64,000 bases of DNA, from contig NC_036456.1 of assembly GCF_002775205.1 (NCBI RefSeq), positions 23,821,968-23,885,967 on the forward strand, in the 5' to 3' direction. A program made the position numbers and the translations under genes. The notes beneath the pieces are model-generated. The model did not search any database and was not told where the DNA came from. It saw only the letters and a program-made list of their open reading frames with translations. The stretch is from Xiphophorus maculatus. Taxonomy: Eukaryota; Chordata; Actinopteri; Cyprinodontiformes; Poeciliidae. Positions 383 through 42,300 of this stretch are shown piece after piece. Numbering within the stretch: position 1 is the stretch's first letter; each line of letters starts with the position of its first letter.

Positions 383-2008
383 ATGGAGCAGCCAGGAAAT
401 CAGATGGATTCCATAACATTCTCCTGTTCCATCTGTTTGGATCAACTGAAGAATCCGGTGACTATTCCCTGTGGACACAGCTACTGCATGAACTGCATTA
501 AAGACTTCTGGGATGGAGACGATCAGAGGGGAATCTACAGCTGCCCTCAGTGCAGACAGAAATCCAAACTGAGACCTGTCTTGGTGAAAAATGTGCTGTT
601 AGCAGAGTTGGTGGAGGATCTGAAGAAAACTGGACTCCAAGCTGCTCCAGCTGATCACTGCTATGCTGGACCTGAAGATGTGGCCTGTGACGTCTGCACT
701 GGGAGGAAGATGAAAGCTGTCAAGTCCTGTCTGGTGTGTTTAGTTTCTTACTGTCAGACTCATATTAAACATCACTATGAGGTGCCTGCACTGAAAAAAC
801 ACCAACTTTTCAACCCCTCCAAGAAACTCCATGAGAGCCTCAGTTCTCTTCATGATGACATGATGAAGATCTTAATGAATGAATTTGAAACAGTCTCGGC
901 TGCAGCAGAAAGAGCTGAGAAGCAGAAGAAGCTCCAGGAGAGTCGACAACAAATCCAGCAGAGAATCCAGGACCAAGAGAAAGATGTGAAGCTGCTTCAA
1001 CAGGAGGTGGAGGCCATCAATGTCTCTGCTGATAAAGCAGTGGAGGACAGTGAGAAGATCTTCACTGAGCTGATCCGTCTCCTCCAGAAAAGAAGCTCTG
1101 ATGTGAAGCAGCAGATCAGATCCCAGCAGGAAACTGAAGTGAGTCGAGTCAAAGATGTTCAGGAGAAGCTGGAGCAGGAGATCACTGAGCTGAAGAGGAA
1201 AGATGCTGAGCTGGAGCAGCTCTCACACACAGAGGATCACAACCAGTTTCTCCTCAACTACCCCTCACTGCCAGCACTCAGTGAGTCTACACACTCATCC
1301 AGCATCAACATCCGTCCTCTGAGACACTTTGAGGACGTGACAGCAGCTGTGTCAGAGCTCACAGACAAACTACAGGACATCCTGAGAGACTCATGGACAA
1401 ACATCTCTCAGAAATTCAGTGAGGTTGATGTTCTACTGTCAGAACCAGAACCAAAGACCAGAGATGAATTCTTAAAATATTCAACAGAAATAACTCTGGA
1501 TCCAAACTCAGCACACACACATCTGTTATTAACTGAGGGGAACAAAAAAGTAACAATAATGAAACAACAACAATCTTTCTCTCATCATCCTGACAGATTT
1601 ACATTTTATGATCAAGTTTTGGGCATCCAGAGTCTGACTGGACGTTGTTACTGGGAGGTGGAGTGGAGAGCTGAAGCAATCCATGTTGCTGTTTCCTACA
1701 AGGACATCAGCAGAGACGGGACTTCAGATGAATGTGTGTTTGGATTCAATGACAAATCTTGGGTGTTAAGTTGTTACACAAAGGGTTATACATCTTTACA
1801 CAACAGAGTTAAAACTCCAGTACCAGGTCCAGTTTCCTCCAGAATAGGAGTGTACCTGGACCACAGAGCAGGTATTCTCTCTTTCTACAACGTCTCTGGA
1901 ACCATGACTCTCCTCCACAGAGTCCAGACCAGATTCACTCAGCCTCTATATGCTGGGGTCCGACTTTTTGATCTGGGAGACTGTGCAGAGTTCAAAATAG
2001 CCAAGTAG
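383..2008 (+). CDS. TRIM E3 ligase, RING/B-box1/coiled coil/PRY-SPRY, B-box 2 lost
   Basis: A 541-residue single-exon protein. The RING is a C3HC4 finger at about residues 15-57 (CSIC ... CGHSYCMNC ... CPQC), expected to recruit an E2 for ubiquitin transfer. B-box 1 follows at about 102-145 (CDVC ... CLVC ... H). Where the paralogs have B-box 2 (CRTDQQCICYLC...), this gene has only a short linker (HDDMMKILMNEFETV), an in-frame loss. A long coiled coil runs from about 173 to 290 and PRY/SPRY from about 370 to 541 (motifs LDPN, CYWEVEW, GVYLDHRAGILSFY). The ATG at 383 is chosen because it gives MEQPGNQMDS, matching the MAQxGNxMDS start of the paralogs; upstream in-frame codons are not ATG. A poly(A) signal (AATAAA) lies near 2437. 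Such fish proteins are usually cytoplasmic antiviral regulators, but the target is unknown. Confidence 0.9.
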   Translation: MEQPGNQMDSITFSCSICLDQLKNPVTIPCGHSYCMNCIKDFWDGDDQRGIYSCPQCRQKSKLRPVLVKNVLLAELVEDLKKTGLQAAPADHCYAGPEDVACDVCTGRKMKAVKSCLVCLVSYCQTHIKHHYEVPALKKHQLFNPSKKLHESLSSLHDDMMKILMNEFETVSAAAERAEKQKKLQESRQQIQQRIQDQEKDVKLLQQEVEAINVSADKAVEDSEKIFTELIRLLQKRSSDVKQQIRSQQETEVSRVKDVQEKLEQEITELKRKDAELEQLSHTEDHNQFLLNYPSLPALSESTHSSSINIRPLRHFEDVTAAVSELTDKLQDILRDSWTNISQKFSEVDVLLSEPEPKTRDEFLKYSTEITLDPNSAHTHLLLTEGNKKVTIMKQQQSFSHHPDRFTFYDQVLGIQSLTGRCYWEVEWRAEAIHVAVSYKDISRDGTSDECVFGFNDKSWVLSCYTKGYTSLHNRVKTPVPGPVSSRIGVYLDHRAGILSFYNVSGTMTLLHRVQTRFTQPLYAGVRLFDLGDCAEFKIAK

Positions 2009-3059
2009 AAGAGCAACTCAACGAATCGCAACAAAATACTTAGCTATGATACAGAATGAAAGATAACTTTCAATAGATTATGTACATTTTCATTTACTTT
2101 TAAACAGTAGAAAAGAGAAAAACTTCAACAATATTTCTGCTTTGAAATATTCACATCTGCTCCTATGTCAGTGTTAATGTAGATTTTGAAATGTGTGTAA
2201 AAATTAATTGTTCTTAAATAGGCTACATGAATTATATAAAGTACTATGTCTTACTCAAATATTCTTGTTCAAATTTAACAGGTTAGAATTTATGATTCAT
2301 ATTTTCAGTATGTCAAATATTTTTTCTTATTTCCTCCAATGTGTACAAATGATTTGAAGACGTTTTTCATTTTAGTAAATTTATACTTTAATCAAATATT
2401 TTCTTGTTGCTTTATACTTTTCCAACTGTAATGCTAATAAAAGTCTCCACAGAAAGTAATGAGTCTCCACCTTGTTTACCACTCATCTACCTGCTAAAGT
2501 ACAGACACCACTTCAACATTTCACATTACAACCAGCTGTAAAATTAGCATGTTAGTTATTGCAGATAAAAATTGTCATGTAAAGTTAGATAGCATGCTAG
2601 CTATAGCTAATAAATTAGCTATAGCTAGTAACAGAATGTTAGCTAAAGGAGGCTAATGCAGCCATTAACTTCTTACTTTTCTTTCACATAGAAGGCTCTC
2701 CTAGACCAGTTCTGGTTCTCCTGGAGGTTTATTGCCTTTATGAGTTTTCCTGTTTGCTGTCACTACATATATGCTCAGAGAGATTTCTGCAAACCCAGCA
2801 GCACAATGCAATCAACAGTCTGGTTGCTAAATGCTCATTAATGAGAAGTTATTGCTGCAAGTCAGTGGCTTGATGTAATCTGTTGTGTTTTCTTAGAAAG
2901 AAACGTTTTTAACTAGTAAGTTGAAGTTGACTGGTTGGATGGACTTTTTATGTGTTATTTAGTAAGAGCAATGCTGTATAAAAATAAATATACAGAAAAT
3001 GGTCAACTGGAGACCAAAGTCTGAAGTAAAATGTTTAAAACGCAAGAAATGGCGTGAGA
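2009..3059. other. Intergenic, no gene seen
   Basis: AT-rich DNA between the first TRIM gene and the first TRIM remnant. It holds the likely polyadenylation site of the upstream gene near 2437 and a perfect 14-base inverted repeat at 2597-2628. Short open frames here have no recognisable domain. Confidence 0.6.
2597..2628. repeat. Perfect short palindrome
   Basis: Arms CTAGCTATAGCTAA and TTAGCTATAGCTAG are separated by four bases (TAAA). Each arm also contains the smaller palindrome AGCTATAGCT. No coding or known element explains it; a chance product of local GCTA repeats is possible, since further GCTA units lie on both sides. Confidence 0.6.
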
Positions 3060-3166
3060 AATGCAGCAGCAGTCTGAAGTCTTTGCAGATAATTTGCCCC
3101 TCCCAACCGCAGCTCCGGTTAAACTCCTCCCTTGTGTTCAACACCGAGTTCAGCTCTGCTGCTGCA

Positions 3167-3319: not shown

Positions 3320-4206
3320 TAGTGAGAAGGGAAAAACTCAGAGAGGAATCAGATCTGTTTGGATCTACTGAAGGATCTGGTGACTATTACCTGTGAACAC
3401 AATTACCGCATTAACTTTAATAATAATAATAACAACAATAATAATAATAATCAATTTTATTGATAATGCACTTCATATTTACTGAAATCTTCAGTAAATA
3501 TGTTCAACAATCAAATGCAAATAAAAATGCTAGTATAATAAAATATAACAGGAACCTTACAGATTAAGTATTAAAACAGGATGTTTTGTTTAAAGGGAGA
3601 ACATGGAAAAACACTTTATACAAAGAAAAATCTGTGTATTTCAGTTGAGGTACAGGGCAGGAAACAGCCCAGTTGATTATGTTGTGGGTGCAAATCCTGG
3701 GAATATGAAGAAGGTTCATGTTAGAGGAATGGAGAGTGAATGATGACATTCAAGAGTGAGGAGATCTTTTAAAGAGTAACTAAATTAAAACTTAACATTT
3801 TTTGCAGAGAAGCTGTATAAATTGGGCCTTAAGTTGACTATTTTTGTTATTGTGCAAATTGTACTCTTATCATTGCAACTTGTTTAATTCTGCAATAGTT
3901 TGCGAAAAAACATCTCAGTGCTGCCCTCTTTGGTTGAACAGTTGCTACTGCAGTTAAATTTTCCTGTTGGTTACAAACAGTACAGCTTGGTTGATGTTTG
4001 TCACACAGCACTGCATTTGGTTATTAAGCCATCTAACTAACCATCTAACTTGCACCAACTGCTTCAGGTTTCTCCTAACCCTAAACCTGCCATCGTCATG
4101 ATGAGGTGATGAAGATCCTCCGTCGTACTGATCATCAGTGTATCTGTTATCTCTGCACTATGGCTGAATTTAAAGGTCATGAACCAGTCCCAGCTACAGC
4201 AGAACC
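3320..4206 (+). pseudogene. Broken TRIM gene: RING and B-box 2 fragments
   Basis: Two separated scraps of a TRIM frame. At about 3330-3417 the sequence matches the start and RING of the paralogs (CTCAGAGAGGAATCAG, then ATCTGTTTGGATCTACTGAAGG), but the ATG is lost, about 25 bases are missing, and the codon after the CCxTGTG core is a stop (CTGTGAACAC against CTGTGGACAC). An AAT repeat and about 650 bases of unrelated AT-rich sequence follow. B-box 2 then resumes at about 4091-4206 (ATGATGAGGTGATGAAGATC through CCCAGCTACAGCAGAA). No coiled coil or SPRY remains. This is a decayed member of the array, probably interrupted by a transposable insertion. Confidence 0.8.
3418..3452. repeat. AAT microsatellite
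   Basis: About eleven units of AAT/AAC directly follow the RING fragment of the broken TRIM gene. This could be the tail of an inserted retroelement. Confidence 0.7.
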
Positions 4207-5594
4207 AGAACCCAGAATATCTAAGGAAATGTTTGAAAATGAAAAATTTATCATCAACCAAAGTACAGAAAAAATATCTGTTTACATCTGTGGGGGTGGG
4301 TGCATTTACATCCGAAACAAAAACCTTTGTTTATATCCTAAACAAAAACTTTTGTTTTGGATGTAAACAAAGTACTTTACATCCTAAAATACAAAAACCT
4401 ACTTTTGTTTATTTGCTGGCTGGTGATTTTCCCATAAGCTAAATGGGAAGCTAAAGTTACATTTGACTAGATGACTAAATAAAGATAACAAAAATAAACA
4501 GACTTTCAAACAGCTAAGTGTCACTGAAATGTTTCTCAAAAATACCAGAAACGAAGCAAATATTGTCGCTTCACCTACTACTGCTTAGGAACTGACCGTC
4601 AGGTGCAATGCTGCGTTTTCTATATGCCGAGTGCATCCCACGCATGTGTCCCGTATTTATGTGGGTCAGGTGCATCATGTTGGTTTTGTGCACCACACGC
4701 ATGATGTGCTTTGGGGAATGTGGTTGCATTCATGTTGATCAGGTGCGCTGGCAGCTTTTGTTCGTGTCCTCCCATAATATCCTGCAGGCTTCTCCGGCCT
4801 CACACACTCTTCCTCTGTTTCTCTTTCATCGCCACTCATAATGTCCCTTTGGTCTTGAGCTTGTTATCCTTTTCATCACGCAGAGGTCCAGATTTTTGAA
4901 ACCCACTGAAAAAAGCCATATATTAACTGCATCCTTCTGGTCAAAAAGGGAGAAAATCGTAGCGACTGAAAACTACAGTTTTATGTTTCTTTATTAGTGG
5001 ATTTCTAGAACAGTCTAGAATTTATTTATTGTGTATAATTTCCTAAATGTTCTGTCTATAATCTTTGCTTAACTGCCTCATTTATAATTTGACCTTGCAA
5101 TGGATTCTCTGTCTCGGATAATTTCAATCTACTCTGCAAATAAAAATCTTATAAATTGTTTCTTAGTGACCTAATGGGTTGAAGAACTCATATTTATTTC
5201 TTTAATTAAAATAGAAAAGGGAGAGCCTTAAGATAAGCCCATAATCAAATTAAAGTTGAAGTTTATACGTTTGTGTTTCCTATAGAAAACCAACAAGTTT
5301 AGCAGGTTAAAAACATCATGACACGTATTTCAAGCATGAAATCTGTGTTGTTTGCCTTCCTCGGGCAACACAAATAAAAGTGTCCAAAACTTTTTCAATA
5401 CTTCATTAGATCAGACCCCAAGTTACATAAAGAAATGAGGTAAATACTGTATGTTTAACAGTCAAGTATTAAGATTGAAGATGAAGTTGGTACCAGTGTA
5501 TGCTAATGTTGCAGATTTAAAATGATCTTTCACCTGGATTGAAATATGGCATGACACCACTCCCATTTTGAAAAAAAGGCAGTTTAACAGTTTA
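4207..5594. other. Intergenic, inverted-repeat debris, no gene seen
   Basis: Contains an imperfect inverted repeat around 4308-4366 (CATCCGAAACAAAA against TTTTGTTTTGGATG), likely a small MITE remnant, and AT-rich sequence. Short open frames at 4.6-4.9 kb have no domain and are not supported. The last 40 bases hold the CCACTCCCAT box (5557-5566) of the next gene. Confidence 0.5.
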
Positions 5595-8168: not shown

Positions 8169-8210
8169 AAGGGAGTGGCTGATAGCAGCTCCAGCAAAGG
8201 TACGTGTGAC

Positions 8211-9668
8211 ATGTTCATTTCCCTAAAGGAAGAGTCACACAGTATTACTGAAACTCTGCAGCAGAAAGATCAGATGGATTCTGCTAAATTAACTTGTTGT
8301 ATTTGTTTGGATCTCCTGAAGAGTCCGGCGACTATTCCCTGTGGACACAGCTACTGTATGAACTGCATCAAATCTTGCTGGGATCGGGAAGATCGGAAAG
8401 GAGTCTACAGCTGCCCTCAGTGCAGGAAAAAGTTCACAATGAGGCCTGGCCTGGTGAAAAACATTGTGTTAGCAGACTTGGTGGAGGATCTTAAGAAGAC
8501 TGGACTACAAGCGGCTCCGGCTGATCACTACTATGCTGGACCTGAAGATGTGGCCTGTGATGTCTGCAGTGGGAGGAAGATGAAAGCTGTAAAGTCCTGT
8601 CTGGTCTGCTTAGCCTCGTTTTGTGAGAAACACATCCAACCTCATTATGAGTCTTTTACTTTTAGTAAACATAAACTTGTTGAAGTTTCAGCAAAGCCCC
8701 AGCAGAACTTCAGCTCTCGTCATGATGAGGTGAGGAAGATTTTATTTGATAAATATAAAAGAGATCCAAATGCAGCAGAAAGGACAGAGAAGCCAGAGTT
8801 TGAAGTAATGCGACAACAACTCAAGCAGAGACTTCAGAACCGAGAGAAAGATGTGAAACTGCTTCCGCAGAAGATGAGAGGCATCAGCGTCTCTGATGAT
8901 AAAGCAGAGGAGGACAGTGAGGCGTCACTTCCCTCCTCGGACAAAAAGAGGGTGAAGAGCAGACCTTTATCAGTGCCGTTACCTCCTGGTCCAGACCCAG
9001 TCCCAGTTGGTGGTGTAGCTCCAAACATGAAGAAATTGATCAAAATCTTCAACAAAGACAAACCAGCACCTGTTCCCACCTCCACTCCAACAAAGATTTG
9101 TGGGAAATGTGGCAAGGATTTGTCCAGCACTCAGCCAGCTTTGAAGGCAATGGGCAAAGCCTTCCACCCCAGCTGTTTCTGCTGCATGAGCTGTCACCGC
9201 CCCTTGCAGGGCATGCAGTTTTATGACAAGGAAGGCTCACCAGAATGTAAACGTTGCTATGTGACTTCCCTGGCTTCCTGCTCTCAATGTGGAGAGAAAA
9301 TCACTGACCATATCCTGAAGGCCATGGGAAAGTGCTTCCATGTCCGATGCTTCCTGTGCAGCACCTGCTCCTGCACACTGGATGGACTCCCATTTATTGC
9401 AGGTGAAGACAACAAGCCCTACTGCGTACAGGATTACCACAAGCATTTCTCTCCTCAGTGTGAAACCTGTAAAGAACCCATTGTTCTGGCTCCGGGCAGT
9501 GAGGAAAGGGTAAAACTGGTGGCTCTGGGAAAGAACTACCACATCGAGTGTTACCAATGTGAGGACTGTGCTCATCCATTTTCATCTGAAGTAGATAAAT
9601 ATCAAGGTTATCCTCTGGATGGCAGGTTTCTGTGTATTAAGTGTCACACTAAGAGAACCAGGAAGTGA
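8211..9668 (+). CDS. Chimeric RING-B-box-LIM protein (TRIM N-terminus fused to zyxin-like LIM domains)
   Basis: An intronless frame of 485 residues from the ATG at 8211; the ATG at 8274 (MDSAKL) is an equally plausible start, giving 464. Part 1 is TRIM: RING at about 30-71 (CCIC ... CGHSYCMNC ... CPQC) and B-box 1 from about 116. A decayed segment without B-box 2 cysteines and a short coil remnant (to EEDSE, about base 8921) follow. Part 2 is a Ser/Pro linker and three complete LIM domains at about 297-350, 357-412 and 417-480, with all zinc ligands visible (CGKC, CSQC, CETC starts). LIM 3 ends in the zyxin-like PLDGRFLCIKCH. There is no PRY/SPRY. LIM coding in zyxin-family genes is normally split by introns, so an origin from a processed mRNA landing in a TRIM copy is inferred. 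AATAAA lies near 10107. The expected role is a ligase addressed to LIM partners such as focal-adhesion proteins, but this is untested. Confidence 0.88.
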   Translation: MFISLKEESHSITETLQQKDQMDSAKLTCCICLDLLKSPATIPCGHSYCMNCIKSCWDREDRKGVYSCPQCRKKFTMRPGLVKNIVLADLVEDLKKTGLQAAPADHYYAGPEDVACDVCSGRKMKAVKSCLVCLASFCEKHIQPHYESFTFSKHKLVEVSAKPQQNFSSRHDEVRKILFDKYKRDPNAAERTEKPEFEVMRQQLKQRLQNREKDVKLLPQKMRGISVSDDKAEEDSEASLPSSDKKRVKSRPLSVPLPPGPDPVPVGGVAPNMKKLIKIFNKDKPAPVPTSTPTKICGKCGKDLSSTQPALKAMGKAFHPSCFCCMSCHRPLQGMQFYDKEGSPECKRCYVTSLASCSQCGEKITDHILKAMGKCFHVRCFLCSTCSCTLDGLPFIAGEDNKPYCVQDYHKHFSPQCETCKEPIVLAPGSEERVKLVALGKNYHIECYQCEDCAHPFSSEVDKYQGYPLDGRFLCIKCHTKRTRK

Positions 9669-10596
9669 TTGACTGATGCAGGATCTTTGGGTTGGACTAA
9701 ATTTAAAAGCATCTGTATTCATTGAATTCCTAATTTCCCTTCACAATTATTTTTGATAACTTCATACAAGTTTTGCAATGAATTAATACATGTTTGTTGC
9801 AGATCTCATATAAGTCTTCCAACCAAGTTTGTTGTTAAAAATACATCATGTTTTAATGCACTTAGTAGATTGTTGAATACAAATACTTGTTTTCAAAAAC
9901 ACATAGTCAAATTCAACAATATGTGTTCAGATGAGGCTCATTTGTCTCATTAAAAGTACCATTTTGACAATAATCTTTAATTTGGTGTTAGACGTACTTT
10001 TCATTAAGTCCATATTTCTGTATTAGAATGTTTGTTTTGCCTGATATAATATTCTAATCTTAAATGTTATGTTTTTTGTTAGCTGTAAGCATAAAATCAT
10101 CATGATCAATAAAAATCAAGGTTTGAAAAAATCATTCTGTGAGTAATTAACAACAGTTAGAGAACTGAAAATTATACTAAGAGTATTGCAGCATATTTTT
10201 GTTGGTCATCAAAAAGACCAACTAGATGAATATACGGGTTCTGGTACTTAGAGTGACAAAATAATGAAGAAAAAATAAACTTGAATATAAAATACATATT
10301 TCAGCAGAAGAAACTGACATCCAAATATGAGTTTTACACAACATAAAATTCTTTAAACCAAGACAGCAGCAGCTGGTGGTGTAGACAAGCTAAAGCAGTG
10401 CAACATACTTCCAGTAGAAATGCCTTTTACTTGATCTGTAACATTAACACACACAAATGATTTTGTAAGATAAATACAACAAAGCCTGAAAACTGACTGA
10501 ATACTTCTGGAGATAGCAGGTGAAAGTGAGATAAATGTATGTTTCTACTGTAAACTTAAACTTGACTTTGACCTGTCGTAAAGCAAACAGAGAGAA
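9669..10596. other. 3' flank of the RING-LIM gene, no further gene seen
   Basis: AT-rich sequence that includes a likely polyadenylation signal (CAATAAAAATC near 10107). No domain-bearing frame is present. The CCACTCCCTT box of the next gene starts at 10597. Confidence 0.5.
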
Positions 10597-10664
10597 CCAC
10601 TCCCTTCTCTGCAACACAAAGTTCAGATCTGACAGTCTGACAAGTTATTTCCTGGTTCCTCCCA
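10597..10664 (+). promoter_or_regulatory. Array-wide upstream block, copy 4
   Basis: CCACTCCCTT at 10597-10606 and TTTCCTGGTTCCTCCCA at 10648-10664, 87 bases before the start codon. The second part is one of the copies that match the consensus exactly. A donor-like CTGGTGAGTACG lies at about 10721. Confidence 0.55.
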
Positions 10665-10751
10665 TTTAAAGGTGAGGGCTTGGTAGAATTGCTGTACTGT
10701 AAAGAGCAGGAACTGACAACTGGTGAGTACGCAGAGCAGTGAGGAATAAAC

Positions 10752-12395
10752 ATGGATTCATCTAAATACTCTTGCTCCATCTGTTTGGATCTACTGAAGG
10801 ATCCGGTGACTATTCCTTGTGGACACAGTTACTGTATGAACTGTATTAAAGACTGCTGGGATGGAGAAGATCAGAGAAAAATCAATAGCTGCCCTCAGTG
10901 CAGGAAAGAGTTCATACCAAGGCCTAACCTGGAGAAAAACATCATGCTGTCAGAATTGGTGGAGGATCTGAAGAAGACTGGACTCCAAACTGCACCAGCT
11001 GTCTACTGCTATGCTGGACCTGAAGATGTGGCCTGTGATGTCTGCACTGGGAGGAAGATGAAAGCTGTCAAGTCCTGTCTGGTCTGTATGGCTTCTTATT
11101 GCCAAAATCACCTTCAACCTCACTATGAATCACCTACGTTTAAAAAACATAATCTGGTTGAAGCGTCTACTAAACTTCTGCAGAACATCTGTTCTCGTCA
11201 TGATGAGGTGATGAAGATCTTCTGTCGAACTGATCAGCAGTGTATCTGTTATCTCTGCACTATGGATGAACATAAAGGCCATGAAACAGTCCCAGCTGCA
11301 GCAGAAAGAGCTGAGAAGCAGAAGGAGCTCCAGGAGAGTCGACAACAAATCCAGCAGAGAATCCAGGACCAAGAGAAAGATGTGAAGCTGCTTCAACAGG
11401 AGGTGGAGGCCATCAATGTCTCTGCTGATAAAGCAGTGGAGGACAGTGAGAAGATCTTCACTGATCTGATCCGTCTCCTCCAGAAAAGAAGCTCTGATGT
11501 GAAGCAGCAGATCAGATCCCAGCAGGAAACTGAAGTGAGTCGAGTCAAAGATGTTCAGGAGAAGCTGGAGCAGGAGATCACTGAGCTGAAGAGGAAAGAC
11601 GCTGAGCTGGAGCAGCTCTCACACACAGAGGATCACAACCAGTTTCTCCTCAACTACCCCTCACTGCCAGCACTCAGTGAGTCTACACACTCATCCAGCA
11701 TCAACATCCGTCCTCTGAGACACTTTGAGGACATGACAGCAGCTGTGTCAGAGCTCAGAGACAAACTACAGGACGTCCTGAGAGACACATGGACAAACAT
11801 CTTACTGGCAATCACTACGGTTGAGGTTTTGTTGTCAGAACCAGAACCAAAGACCAGAGCTGGTTTCCTGATATATTCACAAGAAATAACTTTGGATCCA
11901 AATACAGCACATCAAAGTTTGGCACTGCTTCAGAGAAACAGAAAAGTATCATTAAGGCATCAGCCTTATCCTGATCATCCAGAAAGATTCACTGGCTGGT
12001 CTCAGGTCCTGAGCAGAGAGAGTCTGACTGGACGTTGTTACTGGGAGGTGGAGTGGAGTCAGGGAGGAGTTGAAGTAGCAGTTTCATACAAGAATATCAG
12101 TAGAACAGGAAGATTAGATGAATCTAAGCTTGGATTTAATGACAAATCTTGGGCACTACGTTGTGGCAGTGAATGTTGCACATTCTGGCACAACAAAGTA
12201 AGTACTTCCATTAAAAGTCCAGTTTCCTCCAGACTAGGAGTGTACCTGGATCACAAAGCAGGTATTCTGTCTTTCTACAGCGTCTCTGAAACCATGACTC
12301 TCCTCCACAGAGTCCAGACCAGATTCACTCAGCCTCTACATGCTGGGATTTGGCTGTTTAATCAAGGAACTGCTGAGTTTATCACGGTTAAATAG
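10752..12395 (+). CDS. TRIM E3 ligase, RING/B-box1/B-box2/coiled coil/PRY-SPRY
   Basis: A 547-residue single-exon protein starting directly at MDSSKYSC, so it lacks the seven or so leader residues of the paralogs. RING about 8-50, B-box 1 from about 95, B-box 2 about 147-180 (intact CxxH-type ligands: HDEVMKIFCRTDQQC), coiled coil about 181-300, PRY/SPRY about 378-547. Long tracts (about 11070-11760) are near-identical in DNA to 6110-6800 of the gene at 5775, pointing to recent duplication or conversion. The SPRY is distinct (GWSQVLSRESL, CGSECCTFWHNK). The ligase function is inferred from the RING; the SPRY ligand is unknown. Confidence 0.92.
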   Translation: MDSSKYSCSICLDLLKDPVTIPCGHSYCMNCIKDCWDGEDQRKINSCPQCRKEFIPRPNLEKNIMLSELVEDLKKTGLQTAPAVYCYAGPEDVACDVCTGRKMKAVKSCLVCMASYCQNHLQPHYESPTFKKHNLVEASTKLLQNICSRHDEVMKIFCRTDQQCICYLCTMDEHKGHETVPAAAERAEKQKELQESRQQIQQRIQDQEKDVKLLQQEVEAINVSADKAVEDSEKIFTDLIRLLQKRSSDVKQQIRSQQETEVSRVKDVQEKLEQEITELKRKDAELEQLSHTEDHNQFLLNYPSLPALSESTHSSSINIRPLRHFEDMTAAVSELRDKLQDVLRDTWTNILLAITTVEVLLSEPEPKTRAGFLIYSQEITLDPNTAHQSLALLQRNRKVSLRHQPYPDHPERFTGWSQVLSRESLTGRCYWEVEWSQGGVEVAVSYKNISRTGRLDESKLGFNDKSWALRCGSECCTFWHNKVSTSIKSPVSSRLGVYLDHKAGILSFYSVSETMTLLHRVQTRFTQPLHAGIWLFNQGTAEFITVK

Positions 12396-15575: not shown

Positions 15576-15860
15576 ATGGCTCAGAGAGGAAATCAGATGT
15601 ATTCAGAAAAAGTTTATTGCTCCATCTGTCTAAATATACTCGATTTAAACAGATGTAATCGATTCCTATTCCACTTGGACACAGCTACTGTGACTTGTGT
15701 TTAAGACTTTTGGGGACAAGAAGATCAGAGGAGAGTCCCCCGCTGCCCTCAATGTAGGAACAGTTTCATACTGACAGAGTTCAGGCCATATTCACTCAGT
15801 CTCCACATGCTGCAGTTTGAGAATTAGCACATGAAACCACTGCTGAGTTAACTAAATACA
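15576..15860 (+). pseudogene. TRIM pseudogene: RING joined to the last SPRY codons
   Basis: It opens well (ATGGCTCAGAGAGGAAATCAG, giving MAQRGNQMYSEK, then CSICLNIL) but frameshifts within the RING, where about 15 bases (TTTAAACAGATGTAATC) replace the DPV codons, and reaches a stop by 15704. The DNA still follows the RING to TGCCCTCAATGTAGGAAC. It then jumps at about 15780 to the SPRY end (CATATTCACTCAGTCTCCACATGCTG) and a GAGTTAACTAAATA end like the paralogs' last codons. About 1.3 kb of B-box, coil and SPRY is deleted. Confidence 0.85.
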
Positions 15861-30358: not shown

Positions 30359-33300
30359 CTGCAGAAGACGAAACAAAATAAAACTTTCAAAATGATTTCA
30401 GCAGAGGATTTAATCCAAGGAAAACAGTAATTTCAAATCGCACACCTTCAGTGTGAGCTCATCCTCGCTCTCTGCTGTGAAATCAAACACAGCTTTAGCC
30501 GTTCCTTTAGCTGCAGACTGCTGGCCTGTGATTGGCTGAGCTGATGAGAAAAAAATAAAATAGATAAAAAACAGAAGTCGCCTTTTTAAAAAGTTAACAA
30601 AAACAAAGTTTTCTCAATGAAATATCAGATTAACACCTTAAAGCTTCACAAATTGAGCTTAAAATGTATCAGTAAACTCATCTTATTCTTTTATTTTTAT
30701 TTTTCTCCGTTGTCTAAAGCTCTTATAATTGCTTAAACAGCTTTATAAATGAGTGTATTCTCGTACCCTGACTGGGTTGTGTGAAAGCAGCAGGAAAAAG
30801 TCCCTCCCTCCCATCCAGTCGTCCTCTCCTCCACTCTGCATCGACATGCTCCGTCACTTGAATCAGCGCCCCCTTCTGGAAGGACAAGTCATCTGCAGTC
30901 TGACCCGGGAAGTCGAACAGAGCCATCACCCACTCGTCTGTCTGTTTACACAAACGACTCAGTTTTAGAGCGTTTATAATTTCATAAACTGACTAAAATC
31001 AGTGCTGCGTTTAAGGAGAAAATTTATAAGACTTTATTATGAATAATATAGTTTTAATGATGTACATAGAAAGTATAGCTAAACACACTCACCTTTAATT
31101 CTGATGGTTGTTTTAGTGTTGCTGAGGAAAAATATGCAAATAAAATTAAAAAAGGTTGTTTTTAAAGACAAAGCAATGTATTAAAAACTTTAAAAAAAAA
31201 TGAAAGCAGAGAGAAAATAACATGAAGCTTAGAACAAATCATATTTATTCAATTAGACGCTTATATAACCTGTTCAAAAACTTGAAGTTAGATTAGCAGA
31301 CAGTGAATACAAATAGAAACAATTCTCTGTTATTGTGCCAAAAGAATTACATTTAATAACTTTTACAGTTTCTACACTCTGAGGCTTTAGTTACATCAAG
31401 AATGTTGTAATTTTCTATATTAACATGTTTCTGTCGGGTGCTGCATTATTCAGATACTGACCTTAGAAGAAAACACGAAGTCCAAATTGATGATTGCTAG
31501 CTGCTCTCTCTCTCTCTGCTACTTATCTAATCCTGACCGCTCAATCACAAAAGTACACAAGCATTACAAGAGCTTATTTATCAGCTGTTTCTCACAATCT
31601 GAAATGTTTTTATTTCCTTCAAGTCATAGAATTTAAAATATGATTTTTGTGTAGTGATATTTTGTTGCCAGTTTTGATCACATACCAAAACACATTTCCT
31701 TTCTCTTACAACTGAGAAAAAGCAGACAGAGAAAAAACTACAGAAAAACTTTCTAGTGCTGTCATGGTTGTCTTGTCTTCTTTAAATAGAATTAAGGCCC
31801 ATCTCTTAAGACTATCCTAACAATTGATGTATCTTAAGGGAAAATTTTGACAAAAATCGGCATTAAAACTTGCTGTGTGAGCTACGATTAACTCAGGTGA
31901 GTGTAAACATTCATTCCAGCGATTAAAGTGTTTAACATTGACGTAAAACTAAAAGAGTAAAAGCTTTCTTTGTCTCACCAGAGCTTTCCGTTTCTCCGGT
32001 CTCTGCTGCCTCCTGTTTAGAAGTTTCTCCCGGTGTCGGCTCTGGAAGGGGCTCCACCACCTCCATGAAGTTGAGTGGGAATATTCCCGTTCGGCCGTGG
32101 ATCTGGCCCCTGCCCCACTCCTCGCCAACCAGCTCCAGGAGGCCGATGACGTCGCCCTGAGAGAAGGTGAGCTCGTCGTCATCCTCTCCCTCGTAGTCAA
32201 ACAGAGCAACGCATCGCGGGCCGCTGCAGAGACAGACAGCACGTCTGGTGTTTTACTGCTTTCAGCTTCGATTCGTCATTTTGTGAGCATCGTTTCTCTC
32301 TGACCTGACAGCAGGAGGGTCTGGCTGCTCTTTGAGCTCAGCAGGCTGGACAGGCAGAATGGACTGAAGAAAAACAAAGAAAAAACATTTAAAACACGAC
32401 ACAGCACCGACTGAACATTCTCATTAAATCCAGTTAGTTCTGCTTATTACGCTTTAATTTCCATGTCAATGTCAACTTATTTATATAGCACATTAAAACA
32501 ACAGATGTCGACAAAAGTATTGCACAATTCACCAATAAGAACAAGAAAAATACATTTAAAAGTAATGTTTAAAAAGTTTATTATTATAAAAGAAACTTAA
32601 ACTCTGTTTGAATCAAACAGCAAAGAATAAAAATGGGTTTTAAATGTAAATATCATGTAAATATGATGGACTCCCTGGTGGTTTGGTTAAAAAAACTTCT
32701 GATTTAAAATGCCAGTATTACATGGTTTTCCATCTATCATTTATTTTTTAAATGTAGTGGAATATTTTCTAGAATCTGCTTTTCTTCATATTAAGAAAGC
32801 AGCAAAACTCTTTTGTCTCCACATGTGTTTGGTCTCATTTGTTGTCTGTGTGAATACGTAAATAAAACCCCGACAAGTATCAGTGAGCAGAAAAGACACA
32901 AATATTTTAGACTATCCAGAGGTGGGTAGAGTACCCAAAAACTCAAGTAAGAGTATCACCACTTCATCAGTGAAGTAGTGATGAAGAGGCCTGTTCTTTA
33001 CACAAGAACAAGTAAAAAGAAGCCATGGAAGAAAATACTCAAGTAAGAGCAAAACATCTGAGTACTGAGTAACTGATCAAATTATAATTTTATATTTAAA
33101 AATTACATAAATATAAAGTTAAGTGGAAGTTTTGGTATTTCAAAATGGCTATAATTTATACAAGTACCAAAAAATAAAATCAGGCAAAAGAAAATTTTTC
33201 CAAATCAGTTTCTTTAAAGTTTCATAAGTTTTTTATTTAACAAAAACTGCAGGTGTGTGTCTGTGTCTGGTGAATTTTTGGTTAAAACATGTTTTGTTTT

Positions 33301-36300
33301 TCATCCAGTGGGTAGAAAATCCAGAAATTTTACTCAAGTAAGAGCAGAAATACTTTATAATAAAATTACGCAAATGAAAGTAAAAAGTACAGCATAGTAC
33401 AAATGCTTCTAAAAGGTTTTTTTTCTTCAAAAAAGTTAGTCTGCCACCTAGTGGTGTAACTTATACAACGTAGGTTCTTTAAGGAGTGAATGATGATTTA
33501 ACTGGAAATACATTTCTTTATATTTAAACTCATCCTCTTGAGTTGATGTTGTAAAAATATGAACACTGATTCTCAGGTGGCTTTTTGTTAAAATATAAAA
33601 AATAAAAACCAATATACGTAAATGGATGACCCTAGATCTCTTTCTGCTTCAAGTCAACGTGTCAATCTGTTATTTTTCAGCTCAAAAGCTACGTCCAGAA
33701 GCTGTGCTGGGTTTTCACCATCCGACAGATGAAGGTTTGTTGAAACTGTCTAAAAACTTTAAATATTTAATCATTAAGATTCCAGGAATTACACTTTTTA
33801 AAAGGAATAAATAAAATCCGTCTGGTCGGTACCTGGAAGTCTGACTGGTTGAGGTCTTCTATGGCTGTTTTTGACTCGCCGTCCTGATGTTGGACCGTCT
33901 CTGGCTGGGTGTCCAGGTCCAGGAGACACTGAGACGGGCTGATGTCGGCTGTAACGCTGCTCTGATCCGTCCCTTCACCTGCCTGCTGCGAATCAGCAGG
34001 AGCAGGTTTTGGATTGTCCAGAACAATCAGGACTTCCTCTTTCTGAAAAACAAATTTAAATGACTACAACACTCTGTGTTTTATTATGATTTGATGTGTG
34101 TTTGTGAGAGAGTACCACGTAGCTGTTGTACAGAGGGTGTCCAGGTTTGGGACGAGGCGGCAGAGGCGGTCCTTTCTTCGACACCCTCTGAGTCTGCATC
34201 TGATTGGCTGATGAAAACTGCTCAGCAGGTACAGCTTTGGCAGCAGCGATCTGATTGGTTGAGGAGTTTATTGCAGGGGGAGGCGGTCTGCTGGGTGCGG
34301 ATTTGATTGGTGGAGGACGTAGAGGGAGGAGCTTAACACTTGGTGGACTTGGAAGAGAAAAGGAAAAAGACAAAATATGAATGAAACAGTCTGAACTTAT
34401 GATTATGTATCTTTACTCCTCTAGGACAAAAAGATTACTTTAAAAAACATTATACAAACACAGTTTATACAGTTAATATGACACAGATACTACAATGCAT
34501 TGTTTAACAGGGCAGGAAAACCAGTTGGTAGTTTGGATTCAACAGAGAGCAAACAGACAGTAAGATTACACATGTTCTCTGAAGATGGAGTGAAGAAGCC
34601 ACACAGTGCTGCAACAGACGGTTATTTTACTTATTGATTAATCTTAATTCTGAGGATTAATCAATGTTTTTTATACAGTGTTATAAATACATTAAAAGAA
34701 GAAAATAAACATTTTAGTGCCTGAAATAGAAACTTTCTACATAAATAACCTTAACAAAATGTCATCTCCATCCACAAAAACAGAATAAGGCTTTTAATCA
34801 AAGTGTTTAGGCCCAACTATTCAGTCTTTCCTTACCGCTGAGGGAGAGTCGGCCCAGAAGACACTGAGTTAGCAGGGATGCTAGCTTCAGCTTTGGCCTG
34901 GGGAACGGAGGCTTTCCTCATGGCGGGGGCCGGAGCCGGAGTCGGGGGTTTGGGCGGTCCTGGAGGCTTGGTGGGTGCAGCAGGACCGACCGCTGCAGGT
35001 TTCAGAGGGACTGGGTTTGGATCTGGACACGCCGGTGGTACTGCAGTTGGTTTGGGGGCCAGACTAGGAGCTGGAGGAGGAAAACAGGTAATTAATTATA
35101 TTTATTCATCATATAAATACTAACCTAAGATGAATAAATCTGGTAAATAAAAAACATAGATCTATAGCTACTTCCATTACAGTTACTGTGGTGATTGTAA
35201 CGTTTTGAGTTTTTTAATTTCTGTGTTGCTACAATAATCTCTGATGGGACATTAGCGCCCTCTATTGGCCTTAGATTCTCATGCAACTGTTGCATGCAGT
35301 TTATACAGATCCATCAACAATTCAGAATATTATTTACTGTGTCACTAGGTGAAACTCTTTATATAGATTATTTAAACAGATTGGTGTTTTTCAGCCTTTA
35401 TTTCTGTCAATTATAATGGTTTTCTGCTAATAACTAATGAAAACCTAACATTTAACCAAAGCATGAGAAATAATCAAAAATAGGTTCTGAAGTTGACAGG
35501 AACTAAAACTAAAGACCAGATTATTAGTTGCTAGTTGTGTGTTGCTGGACGCCATTTTGCTTTAATTCTTTGTGGCACAGCTTCATAGAAAATTCCTGGG
35601 ATTTGTCTCTGTGACAGGATGACATAGTTTCTGCAGATTTGTTGGCTGAACTTTCCTGATGTGACTCTTTAGTCATCCTGCTAAATCCCAAAGGTGTTCT
35701 ATTATTGGTTTGAGATCTTGAGACTGTGGAGGTCATCGGAGCACAGTGACCTCTCAGTTTCAAAACACTTTGTTTTGAAACAACAAAGTTTGAAAAACTT
35801 TGTTGTTTGAGTACACTCAGAAGAGTGCACTCCTCTGCTGATAGTGCACTGTCAGAAGAGGAGTGCCCTGTGGTCATTAAGGGAAGAAAATGGTCAGCAA
35901 CAACGCTGAAAAGCTTTGTTGTTTAAAAGGTGAGTGTTGGAGCCTATTAAGTATTTGATGAATTAATAATTAGCTAAATGATAAATGTTATTATTGATCC
36001 AAAATGATGCTAATGATTACAGAAGAAAAGACAGCAGCTTTGGTTGCTCTGATTGTTTGCTGTGAAAAAGTGAAACGGTTTTTCTATCACTAAATTAAAT
36101 TTTGTATGAAGAAAAACTGGAGAATATTTATGTTATTATTATAAATAAAGTTAAAGGATCTATTTGAAACCAGCGAGTTCTCCTATCTCGTTTTCTGAAA
36201 CTCTGACATGTTTACAAAAAATGGTTTTGTTTATATTAGACGCAAGATGTGAATGTGTTGTTTTCAGCGGATGGCCTTGTCTGAATCTGTATACTCCAGT

Positions 36301-39300
36301 CAACGATTAATCGATTGCTAAGCTAGTTGATGATTATTTTTTAAATTCAATTAGTCGTGATTAATCACGATTAATAATTTCAGCCCTATTAATAAAGGTT
36401 TATTCGAGCCAAATGTTGACTTTCTGTCATCAAATCAGAGCACACTGAAGGCAACTTTTATGTTTAGCTTGACTTTGTTAAATGTCAAACCAAACATAAA
36501 AGTTGCCTCTGATTTGATGATAGAAAGGCAACATTTGGCTCAAATCACTACTTATTAATAGAATGTCATGTTTTCCAGGATGAAAATATAGAGATTGGAC
36601 ACATAAGAAGAACTGATTCGGTTTTATTTCTACGAGGTATCAACAAAAAGCCCCCAAACTTCTGCATCTATTGGTTGACTGGTAACTTAAAGAGGCAATA
36701 AAACTGCTGAAGACTCAGCCAGCAACACACACCAAGACGTCTACACACTTCAAGCACACAACAACAGTGGGGGCTTGTTTCTTCTCACACAATCATCCCA
36801 TTTTCCTCCCACAAAGTTTGTATTGCATCACACAGGCCTCCCTCTTTGAGCCGGACCCAAGCACATAGTCACATACAAACACTTAGCACATAAAACCTCT
36901 CCACATGTTTGCATGTTTCTGCCACAAAACAAATGAGCTGCATTTGTGTCTCTAAGCTCTCAAACGCCCCATTGTGCCGCAGCTACATCCAGATCAGAGT
37001 CTTAGAAACTCGGACACACAGCAGGGCCTGTAGTCTTACCGCTGGCTCTGCGAGGGGAAGTTGGTGCTGCCGGTTTGACGGTGGAACGGATACTTCCTCC
37101 TTTCACTGAAAAAGGAAATAAACACAACATGGAAAATCATTCAAAGTGTAACTAATCCCCAAAACAACTGTTGTTTTTGTTGCTATATATTAGCTGTTCA
37201 CTAGGTTTTATAGAACCATATAAAAAGTATCTTTTAGTTATCTCTTTGTAAAATAGGGAAATAAAACCATTAAATAACCTAAATATTACATAATATTTAG
37301 ATTATTTATGTAACCTAAATAAATATCTAAATAAACAACATATTTAAAATGTTTATAAGATAAATTAACTTTAAATGTGTAATTTTAAGTTAAAATCAAA
37401 CATTTTGCGAATTTTTCATTTTCCAAATAAAAACCACAGAAATCAGAGCTAGCTTTCACAGTTACAACAGTTTGCCAGAAAACCTTTAGGTACAGAAATT
37501 TATAATCAATAACTTATTTTATTTTATTAATATTATTATTTTAAATATAATAAAGTGACTTTGCATTTGTCTCCTGTGGATAATATTAATTAAGCAGCAT
37601 CAAGTTCAAACAGCAGCTGGGAGGGAAGAAACACCGTCACAAAAAGAAATCAGTGACTCCATATTCGGTAATGCCTCTTCACCTGCCTCTGTTTGGTCTC
37701 CATGGCAACCAGCTGCTGTACTGCTTGATAGGGGGCAGCGGCAGTTTGTACTACTTTCCTCACTGCTCTGTCCTAACTCAGATATCAACCACAGCATCAG
37801 GAAGTAAGGATTCACCAGACGAAGGTCTCTGCAGACCACACACATCCTGGACACAAACTGCTTAAACTTTTACCTTTAAGTTAGTGCTACAGACCGCCAT
37901 TTGTGGAAGAAAATAAATAGTTTGTTGCCACAGAGATGGTTTCTTCCCCCAGGTTGTCTCTTTGATGAACAACTTAAAGCAAGCCAACTTTCTGTTGTGC
38001 AACATTTTTAAAAAATGACATCTAAAACAAAACAAAGATGACTCCCAGCAATCCATAAAGACTGCTAACTGGAAATATTAACGTTTCTTATTCAGCTAAA
38101 GTGACGAGAGAGAAAGAGAAATAGGCCGAACCAGCATTTATCAGCAACAATAAGGTACACAGCTCGCCGTAGACTGTCCACCACACCACTCTGTGCAACC
38201 TCACTAGTAAAGTTTGGTTAAACTTTATTGTCCTTGAAGGGCAAGTTGCTGCACATTCAGCAGGCCCACACAAAAAAAACTAACAACCTCATTAACAATC
38301 TTTAAGCATACACAAGACAAAGTCTGCTTCCAGACTGTGTCTGTATTTCGGTTCTACAGAGCCTGATTCTATCATCTTGACAGTTCAAACTTGACCCGTA
38401 GTGTCGTAGCTTTCGTCAGTGATGTGACACTATAGAGGTCAATAAGATTGTCAAGAGGAATGCCAGAGATTTTACTGCATTCTTTAATAATGTCCTGCAA
38501 ACTGTTTATAATTCCTGACTGTTGAGTTCGCCAAAACAAGCCCGCCATTATCACCCATAGATAAATAAAGGTTCTTGTCTGGACTAAAACCAGGAGAAAC
38601 AAAAACAACATTGTAGAGCATGAAGTCAGCAATAAAATTAGTTTCCCTTGAATTAGGAAGACAGAAAACATTTATACATTTAGCCATTCTTTTTTTTACC
38701 CCTCCAGGGGGTCTTTTTTGTGGGCTCTAGTGTCCCTTACATGACAGTGGGCTGACAGGAAACAGGGAAGGACAGGGGGGAAGACATGCGTCAAATGTCG
38801 TCGGGTCCGGGAGTCGAACCCGTGACGGCCGCATCGAGGACTCAAGGCCTCCAAATATGGGTCGCGCTACGCCCTACGCCACGCCCCACATTTAGCCATT
38901 CTAATATAGAATATGGATAAATATTTTTACTTTATGGTTTTAGTTCAGGTTTATCTTGCAGTTCAATAAATGGTCCATACAGGATTTCACTACTGAACAG
39001 CAGAAGTGCAATAACTGCAGAAACGTTAAAGAAACATAAGTAAAGCAGAGTAGATTATTATGCAAATACCAGAAGGGATGTAAACACATATTGTCTTTGT
39101 TGGGAGCTGTAATAGTTATTGAGTCTGTGAGGAAGGATATACGATGACGCCTCTATGTGAACCTAGGGTGCAGCAATCTGTCACTGCGGTATGATGGTAA
39201 ATGTGGCTTTTTGATACTAGCCACATCAATCGAGGACTAAAATTTGACATCAAGTAACGCTGAGGCAGCAGTGTAGAAAAAGCAAGAAATGTGATGCTAA

Positions 39301-42300
39301 TATGTTAGCATCAATGATACTGGTCATTTTAATATCAATAATTTTGTTTATTTGGCGATTGTTGTAAGATTTGCAATAGAGAAGCTTTATTATTTAGTTT
39401 TATTTGCTCTGCTGACCTTTGATTAAATATCCAGTTTAGAAAGAATACCACAACTTGGAAGACTGATGCTAATTTTATGATTTTAGTTTCTTTTTTAAAC
39501 ACCATTATTGTCTAAAGTTAAGGAAATACATTTTTTAACCACTGTGCATATCAGCACTGTAGCAACTTCAGAGTAAACAGTGGTGATGAAAATGATCTCA
39601 TATGAAGCTCATCTGCATGTCATTGTGGAGTTCAGTCAATAACTTAACTTCCTTATCAGCAGCAGTTGCTAATTCAGGCTATCTGGCAGCGTAAACAGGA
39701 AGAAGGACACTTCCTTCTAGCAAATATTTGGAAAGTAACCAGAGACAATTTAGCAGATATCTGCTAACAGACATGAAGAGTTTCACAACCACATCAAATT
39801 AACCAGGTAAGTTTATAGAGCTCTTCCACAATGGCTGCTGGGCAAAAGGAAGGTCAATACACAAACCTGAAGGGTTAGCTGAAAATATTAGCAGCGTTGC
39901 AGAATCACTGGAATAAGAAAAATGTAATGACCCTCCTGACATGGAGACTAAACAGAAGTTTCAGTGAGAAAACCACAGATTTTCCACTGAGTATCAAAGA
40001 GGGCAAGTATCATCATCGAAACACCTGACTGAGATCCTAATGACTGAGAAAAAATGATTAAAACTGTGTAGTTGTTGATAAAACTAGAAGATATTCTGCT
40101 TTATTTTTCAAGTTTGTTTGTATTTTTAAATGAATGAAGTGTTGAGAAGGCAGAAGAAAATACTAATCTTTGAAAATTGTCAGGTAAAAATAAAAACAAA
40201 CTTTAAAAAAGGCTTAGAAAAAATTAAATAAAGACCATGCAACTAACTTTAATAAAAATTGTAATTGAGTCCCAACACTCAACTGGTTAAAAGTTGTTCA
40301 GAATGGAGATGTAACCCGACTAAAACTCACCAGTTTGGGTCACAGTGTTCTGCGTAGCTTCACCTCCACTCCGCGGCGGCGCGCCCAGGCTAGCTCTGGG
40401 GGCGACCGGAGGCCTCTTTGGAGGTCCTGGGTTTGGGGGGAAGGAGTCGCTGCTGATGGAGGACGTGAGTTTGGGTGGAGGCGGCCTGGGCGCCGGGACT
40501 GGGGCGCTTGATGGTAGCGGTTCTGTAACAGTCTGTGGTTTTGGAGTTATGGCGGGCTTTTCAGGGGTTTGGGAAGGTTTGATGTCTGACACTGGATCAG
40601 ATTTTGATGCTTCTGCAGAAGACGGAGCTTCAGGGTTTGACTCTGCCGTTTCTACGCTGCCTGATTCCACAGCAACGCCTTCGTCTTCCCAGAATACCTT
40701 GCTGGAGGGCTTGGGGGAAGGTGAAAAGCTTTTGGGCTTTGGAGCGATGACAGGTGGGGTCGATTTGGCTGGTTGCCCCTGGAGACGAGGCCGAGGTCGA
40801 GGCTCTGGTCTTTTTGTGACAGTGAAACCCTCAACATTCCCAGTATTGAAGTCTCCACAGCTCTCATCAGCGACCTGCTGCTCGAACGCTTGTATCCTCG
40901 CTCTCAGAGTCGCCATGTCCTCTTCCTCCGCTCCGTCCTCGCTCTCCGATTGGCTGCGCTCGCTGTCGTCGCTGCAGTGATCAGGGAAGCCCCAGTCGTC
41001 GGAGCTGAACGCCTCCAGCAGCTCCTGCAGGTACTTCCCGTTGCTCCCCTCTGGGTTGGTGGAGTCGCCGGCTGCACGCGCCGCTAACGTAGCCAAACCG
41101 TCCTCACGTAGCTTAACCAAAGTCTGAACTTTAACCTCGTCGCTAACTGGCTGGCGAGCTAGCCTAGTGCGTGGGCGTGGCCTGGGGCGCTCCAAGGGCA
41201 CATCTGGGGATGGGTCAGGCAATGCTGAAGGCAACTGCTGGTCACTGAGGAAGTCGGAGCATTGCGTGTGTGTGGAGGTGTGTGTTTGAGGCTCAGGATG
41301 TGCGTTGGTAGCTACGCTGTTCGCCTCAGAAGAGCTAACAGTTGATTGGCTGGAGGTGATGACATCAGCAGCATTCGGAGGTCTGGAAGTGCAGGTGGGG
41401 GGAGGTGGCCGGGGGGGCCTCGCTGATCTTCTATCTAAGAACAGAAAACACTCCTTTTAATAATAAATATTCAAATCTAGAACTCCCTCCAATCAGCTTC
41501 CTGGTTTACCGCGAGTCTCCTGAGGGTCGGCGGCGGGTCCTGGGTCGGTCTGTGTGGCGATGGTGGTTCTACAAACCAAAGGTGAGGAGGAAGAGGCTGG
41601 AGGAGGATGGAGAACCTGCTCCTGTGTTTTCTCTCTGATCACCTCCTCATAGGAAGGAGGCGGCTAAAAAACAAAACAAGGGTTAAAGGTGACCTATAAC
41701 GCTTCCATGAACAGGTTAGGATAGATCTATGGTCTACACAAAACATCTTTATCACAGTTTTACACAAAATCAGCTTAGATAATGAGATTTTATTCTGGTC
41801 AGTTCAGCCTATTTTGAGCTGTTCTAGGGAATCTTGTCACTTCAAATCCAAATAAGCTGCTGCTGGCCACGCCTCCCAACTTAAACGTTTACACTCACAC
41901 GTGAAAATGGCTGCAAACAGATCCAGAATTATACAACCAGACATCCTTGAAAAGCATAACCAACAAGAATGCAGCAAGTGGTTTCTGTATGTTAAGTCAA
42001 CAACTAAATATTTGTCACTTCCAGCAGCCATTGTACAGCACATATGGCGGTAAAACCAGCCAACACACACGCTGGAGCTGTTGGGGTTGCTAGGTAACAG
42101 GTGGGGCTTCTGTAGGGTTACTAGGTCAGGGGCAGTGTCTGAACATTTGTGACGTTACATTTAGAAACTCCACACACAAACCGCATTTAGTCATATTTTG
42201 TAATTTATTGATATTTATTGATACCCTCTTTGACAAACAATGGAGAAAATAATAAAACGAACAATATGAACAATAGGAACAGTTTTGTAGACTCTAAACA

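Follow-up and report, generated by a model that had tools for sequence, protein, structure and literature searches.

A putative retro-fusion of a finTRIM-type RING and zyxin LIM domains in Xiphophorus maculatus

In the TRIM5-CypA proteins of primates, the SPRY end of a TRIM protein was replaced by a retrocopied domain. Zyxin is a cell-adhesion and force-sensing protein. The accessible text of PMC2924388 describes TRIMCyp as a fusion of CypA to the tripartite domains, and the fish TRIM survey, in its accessible part, describes two finTRIM genes of zebrafish with a foreign C-terminus, ftr52 (RanBD-CypA) and ftr06 (chromodomain) (PMC3137616). A TRIM-LIM or RING-LIM fusion was not found in the accessible text of the literature searched, and a text search of the same portion of PMC3137616 did not return the word LIM.

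The reading frame described here lies in a 64,000-nucleotide stretch of the X. maculatus genome (C14:23821968-23885967), which is referred to as the window, and searches of the organism's own genome (G000) covered 704 Mb in 101 contigs. A previous sequence-only reading of the locus had drawn an analogy to TRIM5-CypA. The analogy holds in that the chimera is likewise a TRIM with a retrocopied domain at its SPRY end, while it fails in that the RBCC is incomplete, having lost B-box 2 and its coil, and the captured piece is composed of zyxin LIM domains. The chimera also shares with ftr52 and ftr06 a finTRIM-type front and a foreign C-terminus. However, the foreign domains of those genes, according to the available portion of their description, are on separate exons, whereas the chimera carries an intron-free retrocopy, with LIM domains, joined within its coil. 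TRIM25 and RNF135 (Riplet) have the closest solved RINGs to that of the chimera, which differs from both in having neither coil nor PRY/SPRY. With zyxin it shares the C-terminal linker and the three LIM domains, while the rest of zyxin is replaced by a RING and B-box 1. The locus is probably a retro-fusion gene, encoding a RING E3 ligase that would be addressed by a zyxin LIM tandem instead of a coil and SPRY.

Domain layout and the surrounding TRIM array

The chimeric frame is uninterrupted from a GTG at 8175 to 9668 on the + strand, to which all chimera features below belong. It encodes 485 amino acids from its first ATG (8211..9668), and an alternative ATG at 8274 aligns with the starts of the paralogs. 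The frame is located between T2 and T3, two of the six full-length single-frame TRIM genes T1-T6 identified by ORF scan (ORF starts at 365, 5685, 10752, 17030, 21709, and 25145 of the window). Its TRIM-derived part (8211..8921) was aligned with T1-T6 from about 8247-8275 to 8921, and its best relatives in PDB were TRIM25 (5.1e-28) and, next by name, RNF135/Riplet (1.2e-14). This part includes a C3HC4 RING (8295..8423), identified by Pfam, the ligand pattern, and an alignment that places an Arg at the column of the TRIM25 linchpin R54; a B-box 1 (8556..8672), which had no Pfam B-box match at 0.001 but whose Cys/His columns are invariant relative to the paralogs, with TRIM25 chain residues 10-166 matched; and a coil vestige (8769..8921), upstream of which the core of B-box 2 is gone through a 13-residue gap. 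The zyxin-derived part (8922..9668) starts with a proline-rich linker of 59 residues (8922..9098), recognized by alignment with the parental exons, followed by LIM1 (9099..9257), LIM2 (9279..9434), and LIM3 (9459..9644), each identified by Pfam and ligand pattern.

Pfam matches to the chimera (E<=0.001) consisted of the C3HC4 RING and three LIM stretches (PF00412, E 1.1e-29). At this threshold, TRIM_CC, PRY, SPRY, and zf-B_box had no match; neither had PF00643 (B-box 2), the core of which is covered by the gap, nor the coiled coil PF25600, which was found in all six paralogs. An NCBIfam search of the chimera returned only a sub-threshold rad18 match, and its predicted structure was of low confidence (mean pLDDT 44). 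By a custom ligand pattern, all 24 of the LIM zinc ligands are kept, without a stop.

The sequence-only reading had proposed a single frame joining a RING, B-box 1, and three zyxin-like LIM domains, with all zinc ligands kept and no stops; the open frame, the Pfam matches, the invariant B-box 1 columns, and the ligand patterns of the RING and LIM domains agree with this description. Its statement that the SPRY was lost needs extension: the SPRY is absent, and so are B-box 2 and almost the entire coil. Similarly, three LIM domains are present as it described, while the LIM half begins with linker rather than with LIM1. As judged from its domains, the chimera is neither a complete TRIM, being without B-box 2 and coil, nor a zyxin, the N-terminal region of which is absent. 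It contains the three C-terminal LIM domains of the zyxin family, and the PRY/SPRY end of the class IV TRIMs and finTRIMs was absent by Pfam.

A phylogeny of the RING and B-box 1 (23 taxa, 153 codons) placed the chimera with T2, T3, T6, and three other single-frame TRIM genes with 98% support; L030 was left out of the alignment set, and C6_27.30, which is without the stretch, was excluded from the tree. Among the 24 aligned sequences, the gap over the B-box 2 core is shared by the chimera, T1, and two genes on C14, and one further sequence is without a longer stretch. The four carriers are not grouped by the tree, and conversion between paralogs may explain the shared gap. SPRY-ended TRIM paralogs in which the B-box 2 core is missing at the same column as in the chimera are located at 404-1054 of the window, at 1186-2805 of locus L024, and at 1470-3104 of locus L025.

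Searching the own genome with the TRIM half gave at least 201 matches (150 of 312 candidates scored). Across the genome, TRIM genes resembling those of the array are very numerous; the best of them are mostly single-frame genes of ~550-600 codons, and many are clustered on contigs C14, C6, C8, and C4. Two single-frame genes on the - strand, at L045 984-3215 (743 aa) and L046 981-3017 (678 aa), have additional sequence separating the coil from the SPRY. Within the window, short pieces of TRIM sequence lie between the complete genes (3353-4252 and 15597-15770) and are probably decayed array members. The window also includes, at about 30700-41460 on the - strand, two ORFs with SH3 domains and proline-rich sequence that resemble exons of one gene, which we take to be SH3D19-like.

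The zyxin parent and the join

At the protein level, the LIM half had 39 matches in its own genome, of which the best after the window itself was at C3:1383816-1385017, exon by exon. At the DNA level there were four matches, namely the window and three blocks of the C3 locus with 79-81% identity. The parental exons, placed by reading locus L009 and joined by script, have GT..AG borders, and in their joined product a proline-rich region precedes three LIM domains, identifying the parent as an intron-bearing zyxin gene. FBLIM1/migfilin was rejected as the source of the LIM domains, as the own-genome DNA matches beyond the window were only to the C3 zyxin. Human zyxin aligned better with the LIM half than FBLIM1 (49% vs 39%), a comparison that served as a lead only. 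The window contained no other LIM sequence (best remaining match, E 0.43), and the LIM half had no matches in the collections viral_contigs and genome_contigs.

The chimera covers the tail of one zyxin exon and the next five exons, and all five intervening introns are absent from it; their former sites, placed on the alignment, are near 8976, 9093, 9263, 9442, and 9564. Similarity to zyxin begins near the end of the exon preceding the linker exon. The chimera ends three codons shorter than zyxin, with the stops of both aligned, and the similarity continues into a remnant of the zyxin 3' UTR (9669..9748, + strand), where the first 80 bases past the stop scored 15.5 against 5.5 for the best of 60 shuffles. 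All 60 shuffles were outscored at 40, 80, and 150 bases, though not at 300 or 500. The similarity of the 3' UTR is therefore gone beyond ~150 bases, while the LIM coding part retains 77% DNA identity to zyxin. Neither a poly(A) tail nor a target-site duplication was found at the chimera. A dispersed repeat of ~250 bp occupies about 9890-10153 of the window, for which at least 41 matches were obtained, the window's own copy among them, when 40 of 696 candidates were scored, and because part of the 3' flank is such a repeat, the old 3' end of the retrocopy may be overwritten. With five introns gone and the beginning of the parental 3' UTR still in place, the LIM half (8922..9668) is a 5'-truncated, processed zyxin retrocopy.

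The join between the two parts (8921..8922, with a few bases ambiguous) lies within an exon on either side. In a BLAST search of the chimera against the window, the matches to all six paralogs terminated at base 8921, where the sequence-only reading had placed the junction; four further short matches (21-111 bases) were elsewhere. The 12-mer ending at 8921 occurs seven times in the window against an expectation of 0.24. On the TRIM side, the intron-bearing TRIM of locus L027 breaks after the position of T3 residue 223, ~10 codons upstream of the join. Exons of zebrafish finTRIM (ftr) genes measure 555-594, 96, and 234 bp according to the accessible text of PMC2657112, and a border after T3 residue 222 would produce a first exon of 570 bp, within the range of the first of these. 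The possibility that the join itself is the ancestral TRIM exon 2/3 border was rejected, as a border there would produce a first exon of 603 bp, outside that range. A simple insertion with target-site duplication was also rejected: besides the missing duplication and tail, no TRIM 3' remnant was found between the chimera and T3 (9669 to 10752) at E<=0.01.

The sequence thus shows an intron-free zyxin transcript copy, truncated at its 5' end, that is fused within the coil of an intronless finTRIM-type gene, with the reading frame preserved. Because the join is not at exon borders, zyxin may have been retroposed into or beside an intronless TRIM, the 3' half of which would have been lost then or subsequently; alternatively, reverse transcriptase may have switched templates. 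It had been proposed from the sequence alone that a processed mRNA of the zyxin family replaced the recognition end of a TRIM, and that the parental gene should be sought and its exon borders compared. The C3 gene, the five missing introns, and the alignable start of the 3' UTR bear out the proposal, and comparison with the parental exons places the join inside an exon.

Selection and age

The RING and B-box 1 are constrained. With seven taxa (155 codons), the chimera branch had an omega of 0.306 compared with a background of 0.313, and omega=1 was rejected (2dlnL 15.8, p 7e-5), while with nine taxa (153 codons) the values were 0.347 and 0.328 (p 6e-4); part of this branch may be older than the fusion. 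The coil vestige is less constrained, with pairwise omega of 0.45-0.49. A cruder estimate, which counted changes private to the chimera at codons that do not vary among the paralogs, was 0.51 for RING/B-box 1 and 0.57 for the vestige.

The evidence on the LIM half is indirect. Between the LIM half and zyxin (186 codons), dS was 0.758, dN was 0.191, and omega was 0.25, and residues were changed at none of the 24 ligands compared with 64 of the 162 other positions. A branch test with two very distant in-genome outgroups (152 codons) gave an omega of 0.46 and did not reject omega=1 (p 0.59), and residue changes polarised with these outgroups were divided 10 to 6 and 7 to 6 between the chimera and zyxin. 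When equal synonymous change was assumed on both branches, omega was 0.36-0.52 and 1 was rejected (p 0.0007-0.007); when the chimera was given only 30% of the synonymous change, p was 0.04-0.5. Across the settings of this assumed synonymous clock, six of nine rejected omega=1 at 0.05. In neutral simulations starting from the parental sequence, with indels excluded, the frame and all ligands were kept in four of 5,000 replicates at K=0.10 and in none of 5,000 at each of five values of K>=0.15, and 1.9% of 3,000 replicates starting from the chimera passed at K=0.05. Selection on the LIM half is likely, though not proven. Hence, of the purifying selection that had been proposed for the entire frame, the part concerning the RING half is well supported, while that concerning the LIM half is indirect, with one test not rejecting neutrality.

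The six array genes are nearly identical, synonymous codons included, over T3 residues about 161-310 (window about 11232-11681), which extend from B-box 2 to the coil core, whereas 20-codon blocks outside this stretch differ by 8-39% in DNA. This pattern is a mark of recent gene conversion, by which the oligomerisation core is kept alike. The coil vestige of the chimera, with a dS of 0.50 from all six paralogs, is outside this exchange. This, together with the dS of 0.76 from zyxin, points to an old fusion.

Candidate functions and rival explanations

If the chimera is a LIM-addressed ligase, its LIM domains would dock it at sites of zyxin, such as strained actin and adhesions, and, as suggested by data from human cells, also at MAVS and RIG-I-like receptors, where a RING of the TRIM25/Riplet class would ubiquitinate the proteins that it meets. 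TRIM25 R54 is the linchpin, and its RINGs pair through flanking helices (accessible text of PMC4864278). The chimera retains the ligand pattern of the RING and an Arg in alignment with R54, and the TRIM25 dimer residues named in that text are hydrophobic within the aligned stretch, while L4 and L7 are outside of it, with a by-eye extension that is not hydrophobic. An E3 that functions as a dimer may be severely impaired by the absence of B-box 2 and the coil. Without a coil, RING pairing could come from crowding on a polymer, such as an actin or MAVS filament, and the chimera could no longer assemble with its array siblings by way of the coil. We consider MAVS/MDA5 and actin/adhesions about equally probable as targets.

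In human cells, according to the accessible part of PMC5605516, MAVS is co-precipitated by a fragment with the three zyxin LIM domains, which does not by itself raise MAVS signalling, while RIG-I and MDA5 are co-precipitated by either zyxin fragment. TRIM25 and Riplet have been reported to act on RIG-I, with contradictory reports for TRIM25 (PMC7326816, in its accessible text). In the own genome, a tandem-CARD gene on C7 is closest to MDA5 (2.3e-21) and a CARD on C19 is closest to MAVS (5.8e-4); the four CARD_2 matches were only at these two loci (L056 and L057), and no RIG-I-type CARD pair was seen. Because zyxin fragments bind these proteins and the genome includes MDA5-like and MAVS-like CARD genes, the idea of MAVS/MDA5 as the address of the ligase can be tested, with actin and adhesion sites as the equal rival. 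A more specific reading is quite unlikely, namely that of a new antiviral signalling ligase in which a TRIM25/Riplet-type RING and MAVS-binding zyxin LIM domains combine MAVS/MDA5 docking and ligase, which elsewhere belong to separate proteins, in one polypeptide.

The chimera could also be a functionless fusion, even if transcribed, or one of relaxed constraint, whose open frame is a lucky survivor. The long chimera branch and the LIM-branch test that does not reject omega=1 are consistent with such a history. However, a 485-codon frame has remained open with its LIM domains at a dS of about 0.76 from zyxin, a divergence at which the neutral simulations fail, and the RING and B-box 1 are as constrained as those of the paralogs. 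The fading of the 3' UTR next to a conserved coding part points in the same direction, although the repeat that starts ~220 bases past the stop contributes to it. We regard a functionless fusion as unlikely, though worth serious consideration. That the protein is a decoy or adaptor rather than a ligase, with LIM domains competing with zyxin and a RING half that only stabilises or localises them, would fit the loss of TRIM-style dimerisation along with the coil and B-box 2. It is rendered improbable by the kept RING ligands and R54-aligned Arg, and by an omega of RING/B-box 1 at the level of the paralogs.

Two explanations concern the origin of the join itself. A misjoining of two sequences in the assembly is very hard to reconcile with a window without N bases and a frame that is the same across the join; moreover, the zyxin parent with its introns is on another contig, C3, and the LIM half, now diverged to 77% DNA identity, is not that gene put in the wrong place. 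Exon shuffling could account for the intron-free state of both the TRIM and zyxin parts, as could a chimeric read-through mRNA that was joined at splice sites and then retroposed. Such an origin is highly improbable because the join falls inside an exon on both sides, ~10 codons into the TRIM coil exon as defined by L027 and within a zyxin exon.

A TRIM whose recognition end has been exchanged is a rare experiment of nature in giving a ubiquitin ligase a new address. For the probable retro-fusion described here, both kinds of parents are present in one genome, and the newly acquired end is a tandem of LIM domains with known roles in force sensing and MAVS binding. The case would test whether a TRIM RING works without the tripartite core, and whether ubiquitination may be steered to the sites of zyxin.
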